From: Sipunculus nudus
Lineage: Eukaryota > Annelida > Sipuncula > Golfingiida > Sipunculidae
Assembly (NCBI GenBank): GCA_026874595.1
Contig: CM049307.1
Coordinates: 22,917,079 to 22,981,078, forward strand
Length of the DNA stretch: 64,000 nucleotides
Direction: 5' to 3'
Below the pieces are notes generated by a model that was given only the letters and a program-made list of their open reading frames with translations, did no database searches and was not told the origin of the DNA. Made by a program: the position numbers and the translations under genes. How positions within the stretch are numbered: position 1 is the first letter of the stretch; every line of letters begins with the position of its first letter. Below are positions 47,701 to 53,700 of this stretch, piece by piece.

Positions 47701-50700
47701 ACCTCCTGAAAAAAGCGAATATGTAAATTTTACTACCATCTAGTTCTGAACCTTGTTGCAAAAGTGACATTGCGTCTGCCATGTTGCCAGCCTCGCTTTG
47801 ATAATGTGTTTTTAGAGCATTTATGGTATGAAACAACCAATCAGCAGATTTTAAATGCAGTTGTTTGAGCTTGTAACCAGTGGCCTTGACCTTCCACAAT
47901 TGGGTAGAAATGTAAAAAAAATAAGACTGTTTTCTCGTTTATTGATTTTATTTCATTACTTATATAGTTTGAAGATATGTTTGTGTCTTCATTTTTTCAT
48001 TAGGCCTATGCCTCGCTGCGTTATTGCAGCCAAAGTAATTGGCACACCAGTATGGAACAGTTGTAGGTTCATGCATGCCTCATGGACCCCCTCACATGCT
48101 ATGTTTTAGTGATGATTATCAAGCTTAACCTTGTTCCTTGAAAAATCGTTAATATATTGTTTACGTTTGAAAAATATCAGTCAGATCTGTAACTTTAGAA
48201 TTGTTATCCATTGTTAGTATTGCAGACAGTTAATCAAAGCTTGGTCTGCCCAACACTGGTTTCAGTATTTTGTTTAAAGTAACACAGACCTATACTGCTG
48301 TCTGTGTGTACTAGACTTTGGAACTTTTGTAGAGAATAACTATATACATGGATGATTGAAAACCAGTTTCACTAAAATAATGAAATAAATAGAAAATACA
48401 GCTCATCAAGTGTATCAGACATATTGCAGTTTAATTCAAAGAGAATGAACGTTCTCCTAAATCAATGATAACTTGTTTCATAGATAAACTAGAGGCCAAA
48501 ATTTATCACAGTAAGACTTAAAGCACCTTCATTTGGATAACCCTGGAAAATGTAATTTAATAAAATAATTTCCAAGATCTTGGAATAGTTGAAAGACTTT
48601 TTATTATCCTATTGGCCAAGACTTAAGGGTTCCATGCAGGTTCACTGGTCTACAAGGATTCATCATGTAATTCGACCTTTGTTTCCTGAATAGCCTGTTT
48701 TTTCTATTTTTTCGTCCTCTTTTGCTTTATTTAAATGTTCATAAGCTTGTTAAATGTGCAGGTTTTTAAAAATATTGTATCATATTGCAGTTCTATATTC
48801 GCCTGCCTGATGCAGAAGTTGAGAAATATCTGAAGCTGTTTACCTTTCTACCTCAAGCAGAAATAGAACAACTTGTTAACCAGCACAAAGTGAGTAATTT
48901 TGTGATTTATCATGTGTGTCACTGACTTAATATTCATTATCCGGACCCCCCCCCCCCCCTTTTCAGCCGTCAACCTTTTTTAAGGGTATCAGACCAAATG
49001 TTGCAGCCTGGACCCCCCCTCCCTTTTCTAGACCTATGGACCCTCTTTTAGGCTTTCTCATTAATCCTCCTCGACTGGACCCTCCCTTTTCACAAAACCT
49101 GGATCTGCCCCTGAAGATTAATTTGTTGTAAAATGTCATTAAAAGGTTCTGAAAAAAATTACTGTGCTGAAAGTGAGGGAACCTTGCAAGATATGCAGTT
49201 ACAGGTAAAATGATTAATACTTGTTTCATTTGTGTATTTCATGATCGGTCAGTAAGGATTACTCCTCAGTTTTATTATCTGTCAATCAATCAATCAATCA
49301 ATCCCTTGGCCACTCAAGCATGACACTGGCATTGTGACAAGGTAAGAATATACAAGCAAGCACCTGCCCCTACTAATTAACAAATGATCACACTAATCAT
49401 TGTCCCAAAACTTGGTAGATATTATTAATCAATGCTAGGTATATCTTTCTATTTACCTTTAAAGATTTTAAGCAAATTAGGCTGGGGACAGGCATTACAG
49501 TATCAGTATGGGCAGGTCTAGACATGATTCAGCATCATTGCTTGGCTACTGACTGCATATATTTAACCCCATAATTTGTTAATGATCAGAAGTATCTGGT
49601 CTTTAGAGGGTTAAGCATGTGGTCAACAAATACCTCATCTTATCCTGGTAGACATTCTATAAGTTCTGTTGAAGGACCCCACATGGCAGGAATCAATGAA
49701 TTCAGCCGTGAAGATCCAATATGGCACCCTATTGGTGAGCTCTCACCCCTGAGCAGTGCTGACGTAGATGCTGTTTTGGACGTTGATGCCAAGTCAGAGA
49801 AACAGTTTGACAGTGTAGGTCTCTCCAGGAACATAGCCGGGTTATCACCCATTTCATCTGGCCACTTTGATGACTTTGCCACCACCAGTTCTGACAACTC
49901 GTTTTATGTTTCCACAACAACATCATCACCAAGGGCAAGCTCACCAAAGCTTCACTCTGTTCCTTCATCAGCCAGGTACCCAGGACCTTACGGCTTCCAA
50001 ACCAGGATTCAGCAGCCAACAAAAAAGTCGACAGGACGATCAGCAAACTGGACCTACTCAGAAGAGTTTAACAAATTATATGTACAGATGGGTGTGTCAT
50101 GTCCTATTGAGTTTAAAACAGACTTGGAGCCACCCAGAGGAACGCTGATCAGGGCTATGCCAGTGTATGTGAAACCAGAGCACGTCCAGCAGGTTGCTAA
50201 GCGATGTCCGAACCACATCCGGATATCACAGCTGACGGAAAGCCATCCAGCTTCATCTCATCTTGTGCGTTGTGAGCATCACTGTGCTCAGTATATAGAC
50301 GATCCTGTAACAGGGCGGCAGTCTTTAACGATACCTCGTGAGAGTCCCCCAGTGGGGCAGGACTGGGTTCTGAATCTGTTTCAGTTTATGTGTTTTTCTT
50401 CCTGTATGGGAGGTATAAACCGTCGGCCACTACTGGTAGTTTTCACACTGGAGCATGCTGGGAAGGTTCTGGGCCGACAGTCAATGGAGGTCCGAATTTG
50501 TGCTTGTCCATCTCGAGACCGACGCTCCAATGAAAACAGTGAAAATGGTTCAAGAAAACAACAGAGGAAAAACACAGCCACAAAGAATGATGGGAGTGAA
50601 CAGAGACTCAGCAAACAAAGGAAAGTCGGTGAGAACGAGGTTTATACAATAACTGTGAATGGGAAGGATAACTATGAGATAATTAAGAAGTTGAGAGATG

Positions 50701-53700
50701 CTCTTGAATTACAGACAGCCCTCCCTGTAGATCAGGTTCAAAGTATACTCAATCATTAAATATAAATTTCTTGGCAGTGATATATCTATTTTCTAATTAT
50801 CATCCACCTATATAGTATGTGATATATTATAACGGGGTTGTATACTATCATCATATAAAATATCAGTTTTCATTTCGCAATATTTAAAAATAGGGATATC
50901 AGAATACTTATGTTGTTGTAATTTTTCTTTTGGAGTTTCACTTATCTTTTCCTTCTCCGATTAAAAAAACATTGAATATACATATTTGATTGCTTGTTAA
51001 TGCATGAATTGCAATTTTAACATGTACATATATGGTCAATTGGCATTGGGAAATTGAACCTATAAATATTAAATTGTTGGTCAGTTTATAATAGGAAATT
51101 GCTAAAAGAACCTTGAAACAGGTTTAACTAGCATAAATGGTGCTATATGTTTCTTAACCATTATTTATGTTGATATCTTCAAGCGTATCTGATCATAAAA
51201 AATATGATACATAATGTTTTTTTAATATAAATGATATATATATTTCTATATGATAAAACAAGATGCTTGTTTCTCATGTTTCTGTGCTGCATATACCTCT
51301 CATTTTATTCACTTGGCTTTGTAAGTTAATCATAAATGGTGTCTGACCAATTGGGATTATTAATTTATCATTTTTTTATTGACACTTTTAAGTCACAACA
51401 CATATCAAAGTAATTATTTCACATAAAGAACCAATTTTACTGGAATTTCCAATTTGTAAATGTTATGGCAGACAGTTGTGTAGGATATTTCTATGTTGAT
51501 TGTTCTTATCTCAGATATAACTCATGGTGCTGGTATGATTCCCTCTTATATCCATACTTAGAGGTGTTTTCCAAAACATTCTTTAAGTGCTGCTTATTTT
51601 CATTAATAGTACAAAATAGGGAATAATGTATTACATGTATTTTTATGTACTGAATCAAATTCATATTTGTTACTTATGCTGTTGTTTTATGACCTGTTAT
51701 GTTTATTAGATATTTTATAAGATACCATTAGAATGTTAAATTTTATTCTTATGTACCTTTGATACAATCTTATATAGTTGAAGATATAAGACTGCACATT
51801 TGAACTCTTTTTTTTTTAATATATTATCATCATAGTCTATCAGTCTTTATATATATATAATTGATTTCATATTGTAAAGCTGTATTCTTGTCAGATTGTC
51901 TGAAAAATGTATATATATTATTGTTATTTGTATTAAGTCTTGTTGACCCACTATTATAAATATTGTAATTTCTTGTTATTTGTCATATGAAAACAACAGA
52001 TAAATTTGTTAATAAAATTTGAAATGTGCGTCAGTGTTTAAAATTTCGTTTATAAAAGGTTAATAAAAGATAAAAAATTCTTAATTTGCCACTCCCTGCT
52101 CACAAAGATTTCTTGATACAGTAAAATGACGATGTGTTGGTTATGAATGTGTGTTGAGAGTGAATATCATAGTGTATCAGTTTTGCGTTTCTGTGTTTGA
52201 TAGTATTGTATGCAGTAATACAGAGTACTCATGGGTCTGTAAATCTTCTTTGGTGTTTTAAGTAACAAATAGTTTACCGACAGTCAGGGTGTGGACATGA
52301 AAGATTCCTTATATAATAGGATTCAGGAGCTGAAGTTCCCAGGGTTGAACCACACTGGTTTCACAAGACATGATGATGAAATCTTGATAGAATCTCATCG
52401 ATTTTTCTCTGATGAGTAAAAGATTTAGAGTTGTATAACCAACCTCCACATATCATTAATAGGTGGATATAAACAAAACAAACTGTCTGTGTGGAGTGGG
52501 ATGTGCATTTTTTTACTATTTTTTTTAAAGTACCAAAGGTAATATCTTAAGTTAATAGATGTCAAATATCAGAATATGCCCCTTTAAATGCCCCGACTAA
52601 AAAGGAGGGGTCCAACCTAGGAAGACAAATGACAAAACCTAAAAAAAGGTCCCCAGGTCCAGGCCTCAAAGTATGAAATATTGGTCTCAAACCCTTTAAA
52701 AAGACTGCTGCCTCTGAAAAAGGTGGGGGGGGGGGGGGTCCAGAACCCCTGGACCCCTCCCCTTGATCCACTTCTGGGGATTATGATGCAGGGGTTATTC
52801 ATGGCCCCATTTATTGATATATAGCCTACAGGAAATATCTGGACACCTTGCTTTTTGGCACACCTCAGTTAATTGCATGTGTCAATCCAGATTCCCATAA
52901 CCATTACACTAAGACATCTGTTAAATCAGTAATATGGGCATCTCTGTTTTACAGGAAAGAAGACAGCCTGAGCAGTATGTATAATTGTATAAGAGACGTA
53001 ATCACCTGTAACGTAGGTTGAATTAACAAGAAAAATAGCAGCTTCTCTTTGAAATAAAATGGTATCCATCCATAATATTGCCCTGAAACTGATTGCTTAC
53101 TCCTGTTAAAAAAATTGATTGGGCAATATCATAGGCATCAACATAAACACAGGGTTTGCATCACCCTTGCCACAACCCCTGTCAGTCAGGAGATGCCTTG
53201 ACTGATTTGGTCTACAAAATGTAATACATGTTCATGCTGGCTCAGACATCGCCCATTCCGGGAACTGGCTGAGGCGATTGGACCTATTGTACAGATCTGT
53301 TACAATATGTTCTGCAGTGAATTCACATTTGGCCCATGGACCGTTATGTCCATCTAGTAGAGATATATCAGAGGACATGAAGTCCTTATTAATATATGGA
53401 CTAGTTTAGACTAGAACTTGTTTAGGATCTGTTGTGCTTGCGCAAAACCAGACCTCTTGTCACGCTACCTTGTTACGGTAAACAGACTCATGGACTGTGT
53501 TTACTCACAAAGCCAACCTTAACAAGGCATTAAACAGCTGTATGGGAGCTACTGAGACTGTATGCTGAAATGGTTTTACTAGGAATCATTTGTTTAAAGC
53601 GAACTGAACTGATAGTGTAAAAGAATAGGCATAATATTGCTCCTGATTAAGTCCCTTTGACACACATTGGTTGCTTGATCACTAATCACTCAAATTTCCT

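Follow-up and report, generated by a model that had tools for sequence, protein, structure and literature searches.

Copy gain of TP53 is a much-cited example for Peto's paradox. Elephants carry about 20 TP53 copies (PMC5061548), and for their 19 retrogene copies an ancestor truncated to 157 codons has been described, with 14 of the 19 now at 88 codons or fewer (PMC9108310; PMC5061548). No compelling evidence for selection on the elephant retrogenes is reported, and drift has been argued (PMC9108310; PMC5061548). For annelids, a single p63/p73-like gene has been described, with the same scenario in molluscs, and the annelid Alvinella pompejana provides a solved p53 homologue, PDB 7pc6 (PMC8901663). 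The stretch analyzed here, termed the window, comprises 64,000 nucleotides of the sipunculan annelid Sipunculus nudus (assembly GCA_026874595.1, contig CM049307.1, here C2, positions 22,917,079 to 22,981,078). Within an intron of YARS2 it holds an intronless p53-family gene of 380 codons, which is best read as an old, constrained retrocopy of an intron-bearing p53/p63/p73 gene on another contig (C15), and related intronless copies occupy a large tandem array on contig C4 and clusters on contig C5.

As in the elephant, intronless p53 retrocopies stand beside an intron-bearing gene, retroposition would have been followed by duplication at the DNA level, and the MDM2-contact motif is changed (W23G in elephant TP53RTG, F19 here). 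The elephant-type pattern of truncated retrocopies and segmental duplication is not reproduced, however, since the frames are full length with both the DNA-binding and the tetramerization domain, constraint is seen between lineages, and the copies, at no fewer than 148 places, lie mostly in a tandem array. The lophotrochozoan p53/p63/p73 genes, represented by Alvinella 7pc6 and the C15 parent, share the DNA-binding domain and its contacts with the window copy, but they are multi-exon genes with a SAM domain, whereas the window copy is intronless and SAM-less. Vertebrate p53 has the same order of transactivation-like, DNA-binding and tetramerization segments without SAM; its SAM was lost separately, and its human representative is 43.1% identical to the window copy in the DNA-binding domain. 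A p53 retrogene or tandem array in molluscs does not appear in open-licence titles and abstract openings among the matches listed, and the available parts of PMC10663159 and PMC8382680 name no p53 expansion.

The window gene, its host intron and its parent

The gene lies on the forward strand at 49617..50759 and runs from ATG to TAA as 380 codons plus stop. Pfam assigns a p53 DNA-binding domain to residues 119-308 (49971..50540; PF00870, 207.6 bits against a cut-off of 27) and a tetramerization segment to residues 335-370 (50619..50726; PF07710, 42.5 bits against 20.7), while alignments place a transactivation-like segment at residues 30-54 (49704..49778; 25 residues). Sixteen functional positions (human numbering 120, 175, 176, 179, 238, 241, 242, 245, 248, 249, 273, 276, 277, 280, 282 and 283) were compared with human p53, and 15 are identical, including all four zinc ligands C-H-C-C. 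Three features expected of the p53 family are thus present, namely the DNA-binding domain, its zinc ligands and contact residues, and the tetramerization domain; the FxxxWxxL motif of the transactivation domain (TAD) is incomplete, with W kept and the F and L positions changed. Among solved structures, PDB 7pc6 ranks first by sequence (3e-83). From the conserved DNA-binding and tetramerization parts, the predicted product is a tetrameric transcription factor of the p53 type. Two candidate polyadenylation signals AATAAA, recognized by motif only, follow at 52011 and 52062 (52011..52067, forward strand), and Rfam at gathering scores returns no RNA gene match in the window or in the loci L001, L010 and L013.

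The host gene is identified by its joined exons, which match the mitochondrial tyrosyl-tRNA synthetase (TyrRS) 2pid with an E-value of 8.7e-83. Because YARS2 exons flank the p53 frame on the same strand, upstream at 48791..48889 (donor GTGAGT) and downstream at 53842..53908 (acceptor CAG), the frame is nested in the same orientation within a 4952-bp intron (48890..53841). The N-terminus of the window protein has one match in the whole genome, which makes this a single copy. The first-pass annotation had described a 380-codon frame with a p53-type DNA-binding domain, zinc ligands and a tetramerization segment in one exon inside the intron of an unrelated gene, and this description stands in full.

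C15 carries a p53/p63/p73 gene that has both introns and a SAM exon. Its TAD exon, with the motif FDYLWKSL, lies near 52494723; the DNA-binding and tetramerization exons follow at about 52.5215-52.5261 Mb, and pre-SAM and SAM exons come after these (SAM_2, 22.2 bits on a 32-residue piece, cut-off 20.5). Its DNA-binding domain is 85.7% identical to Alvinella 7pc6 and 46.5% to human p53, which fits a lophotrochozoan p53 affinity, and the window copy is 57.7% identical to this gene. Four parental introns, of phases 0, 1, 2 and 0, interrupt the region of homology with the window copy, and their splicing yields one open frame. Since all four are absent from the window copy, which sits at an unrelated site, in a YARS2 intron on C2, retroposition is the best reading, and we infer reverse transcription of a parental mRNA as its origin. 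Retroposition had already been suggested from the lack of introns, with the advice to look for a multi-exon parent and the caveat that the parental DNA-binding domain might itself lack introns; the C15 gene has introns there, and the missing introns, the unrelated host gene and the strong constraint described below bear the suggestion out.

Genome-wide copies and selection

A search of the whole genome with Pfam P53 scored 150 of 176 candidates and listed all 150 as matches; because 26 candidates were unscored, the copy counts are lower bounds. Of these, 141 matches fall at 140 places in the C4 array and seven on C5, while one is the window copy and one an exon of the C15 parent, giving at least 148 intronless places. 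The array spans 454,842 bases (12.528-12.983 Mb) with a unit of about 3.33 kb (116 of 139 spacings fall between 3300 and 3360 bases), and the domain match is full length (model 3 to 191 or 192) at 118 of its 140 places and partial at 22. A 1051-base sequence that extends from the spacer 3' to the gene occurs on C4 only (40 of 140 candidates scored), and outside the coding part the unit contains no frame above 80 amino acids. Among 88 sampled array copies, the eight best-scoring and 80 hand-picked along the array, the 400-codon frame is intact in 66 and broken in 22, an intact fraction that is biased upward because only one of the 22 partial places (L121) was sampled. The 88 copies carry 71 distinct coding sequences, and the 66 intact ones carry 52, coding for 47 distinct proteins. 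The ends of the array, L017 and L018, lie outside this count and are decayed, with six frames of at least 200 amino acids, one with the full 400-codon end and five shortened. Units at either end are rearranged or decayed, with p53 fragments separated by 769 bases among them, and within the array units of the same score recur at a distance of 16,435 bases (C4 12594577/12611012 and 12715385/12731820), which may represent higher-order repeats. On C5, six of seven copies are intact and one (L012) has an internal TAG. The size and scale of this family go beyond the earlier observation of a single copy, and the copy number is the unexpected part.

Constraint between the intronless lineages is strong and purifying. 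The ratio of nonsynonymous to synonymous rates (omega), tested against a null of omega 1 in which kappa was also fixed, is 0.160 over nine sequences including the parent (log-likelihood, lnL, gain 167.9; 2 delta lnL 336), 0.136 for C2, C4 and one C5 copy (gain 106.8; 2 delta lnL 214) and 0.50 among the six intact C5 copies (gain 10.8; 2 delta lnL 21.5). Other triples give 0.126 (C4, C5 and parent) and, with C2 and the parent, 0.047 and 0.024; values that include C2 are rough because synonymous distances to it are saturated. In a neutral simulation of substitutions only, with 2000 runs per level, the C2 frame survived 21 times at 0.1 substitutions per site, once at 0.2 and not once at 0.3, while the non-synonymous distance by itself, taken between C2 and C4, is 0.36. 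The proposal that an old retrocopy has been held by selection, for which a comparison of synonymous and non-synonymous changes between copies had been advised, is thus upheld by the omega of 0.136 and the rare survival of the frame under neutrality.

Within the array the picture differs. The variants (119 nonsynonymous, 49 synonymous and 8 stop) agree with the 119.9, 47.3 and 8.8 expected without selection, and the array looks young, its copies individually unconstrained so far. A first count of nonsynonymous and synonymous polymorphism (121 and 46, ratio 0.81, pi ratio 0.60) had hinted at array constraint and was discarded as neutral under the observed base-change spectrum; a lower coding (0.0034) than spacer diversity (0.0080, 0.0075) came from the eight best-scoring copies only, a biased set, and was left unused. 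It may be, therefore, that the C4 array, in distinction from C2, was amplified neutrally through unequal exchange and drift without any dosage function, and this is given nearly an even chance. Such a history agrees with the variant classes, with the broken quarter of the sampled copies, the partial places and the decayed ends, and with the argument for drift in the re-evaluation of the elephant retrogenes (PMC9108310). Neutrality does not fit the longer history, however, as the omega values between lineages and among the C5 copies show, and the array consensus keeps the full 400-codon frame.

Kinship, proposed history and alternatives

In the best tree, all eight intronless rows group together with support of 80/85, C4 and C5 with 80/82, and the parent and Alvinella with 89/88; C2 and human p53 have long branches. 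In the approximately unbiased (AU) test, a clade of C4, C5 and the parent without C2 is disfavored (p-AU 0.034), and a clade of the intronless copies and the parent without Alvinella lies above rejection (p-AU 0.087). An N-terminal segment, L-x-P/E-L/I-S-S/T-x-D-V-D/E-x-V-L (13 residues in C2), is common to C2, C4 and all but one (L011) of the six intact C5 copies; it was not found in the parental stretch searched, where a short exon could escape. All intronless proteins end soon after the tetramerization domain. From these resemblances, one founding retrocopy for C2, C4 and C5 appears likely. Two or three independent insertions of parental mRNA would instead account for the loci being alike by blastn in their coding parts only, with no flank similarity between C2, C4 and C5, for the long C2 branch and for the survival of C2 with the parent and Alvinella in the AU test (p-AU 0.158); given the best tree, the disfavored exclusion of C2, the shared segment and the common early end, such separate retropositions are regarded as rather unlikely, if a real possibility.

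The MDM2-contact motif FxxxWxxL reads FDYLWKSL in the parent, VDQLWHSL in C4, LEDLWQSI in C5 and EDPIWHPI in C2, so that all three intronless lineages have lost the F that the parent retains and have kept the W. The loss of this anchor suggests an altered MDM2 control of the intronless proteins. FxxxWxxL is reported not to be obligatory in the p53 family, with several groups lacking the motif (PMC5543598), and the affinity of the Mytilus p53 TAD for MDM2 is reported as very low or absent (PMC10303687). The same motif change, together with diverging N-termini and conserved DNA-binding and tetramerization parts, would also suit decoys or dominant-negative forms that bind DNA, mix in tetramers, activate poorly and damp the parental protein. 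This is considered unlikely, as each of the three lineages retains the W and they have a second N-terminal segment in common.

Inflation of the C4 array by misassembly has very little to recommend it: blocks of identically scoring units 16,435 bases apart are compatible with either real higher-order repeats or misassembly, but the variety of coding sequences among the sampled copies, the location on one contig and the decayed ends speak for a real array, and the window copy is single by its N-terminus. The least probable alternative is that an ordinary DNA duplicate lost its introns, or that the gene was acquired from a virus or a different species, since four introns are missing together, the copy lies in an unrelated gene, the intronless lineages group with lophotrochozoan p53, and among the pattern matches in scans of viral contigs, 2 for the window protein and 117 for alignment A1, none was confirmed as a p53 relative.

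The history that is preferred overall, and considered probable as a whole, starts with a parental p53/p63/p73 mRNA that would have been reverse-transcribed long ago and inserted into the YARS2 intron, or inserted elsewhere and moved there later. The retrocopy would then have become a gene in its own right, coding for a p53-like tetrameric transcription factor that lacks SAM, and the C2 window copy, the C5 clusters and the C4 array would form one intronless subfamily, probably from a single founding retrocopy, of which one lineage was recently amplified, presumably by unequal exchange, to about 140 tandem units. The proteins would bind p53-type response elements, either by themselves or in mixed tetramers of one another, and may contribute to stress or apoptosis output of the p53 type under altered MDM2 control. 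We infer expression, DNA binding, MDM2 control and a dosage effect of the intronless copies in the same way. Several observations detract from this history. The sole mismatch among the 16 positions is arginine for K120, and the AlphaFold model of the C2 protein, built on a 5-row alignment, is poor, with a mean pLDDT of 41.6. Support for the union of the intronless lineages is only 80/85, C2 has a long branch, and the union of C2 with the parent and Alvinella stands above rejection. Because blastn finds no similarity between C2 and the parent at all, coding part included, the absence of common flanks is a weak argument. Array variation of the kind neutrality predicts implies that the C4 lineage may be largely redundant. 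MDM2 was not located in a genome search with SWIB (nine candidates scored), whose single match, on C13, was rejected as MDM2 because its sequence matches SMARCD chains (best 8.7e-28); with this sole match SMARCD-like, the genome offers nothing for the MDM2 step other than the motif.

Associated sequences and biological meaning

A p53 response element that matches the full consensus, with two RRRCWWGYYY half-sites and a spacer of 6, lies at 53398..53423 (strand undefined) within the YARS2 intron that houses the p53 copy. It is the only full consensus in the 64-kb window, where 0.02 are expected (mononucleotide shuffle, n=100), and is noted as a post-hoc lead and a candidate member of the system only. 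Autoregulation sites were sought in the C4 unit, in the C5 loci L010, L013 and L016 and around C2, and no full site besides that at 53398 was found. Half-sites number one in the C4 unit (0.90 expected), one in L013 (1.30), one in L016 (0.76) and three around C2 (1.35), and the C5 copy L010 has four against 0.73 expected, without a full site.

Bacterial and organelle-like sequences were also observed in the assembly. Nine cytochrome oxidase I (COX1) genes of near-equal scores with bacterial-type frames of 577-578 amino acids are located on C60, C61, C62, C66, C72, C74, C75 and C89 (two), and nine TyrRS genes with 413-aa frames occur on a contig set overlapping these; the contigs probably belong to several strains of an associated bacterium. 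For one of the COX1 genes (L021), the best GTDB identity among the matches listed is 58%. Another of the 11 COX1 matches, on C123, looks like a cbb3-type oxidase, judging by its sequence and neighbor, and a short COX1-like match with an internal TGA at C5 67852325-67852477 is perhaps a mitochondrial insert. A globin exon of the genome has a nerve hemoglobin as its best PDB match, followed by Hemoglobin II/III and by cytoglobins of vertebrates and myoglobins; several of these matches are mollusc proteins.

To our knowledge, this expansion of p53 genes would exceed any other on record. Whereas the elephant retrogenes are truncated and maybe neutral, an intact and constrained retrogene is found here together with a young array that holds dozens of full-length frames. 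The window copy may have a role in stress response or cancer. That an intronless, SAM-less subfamily with an altered MDM2 motif beside its parent, amplified to about 140 copies, makes p53 dosage an adaptation is a tentative and doubtful proposal; if true, the added dosage would serve to counter DNA damage, viruses or transmissible cancer. The effect of extra full-length p53, and the tolerance of the animal for it, become directly testable in this system, as does the question of when retrogene expansion is selected and when it drifts.

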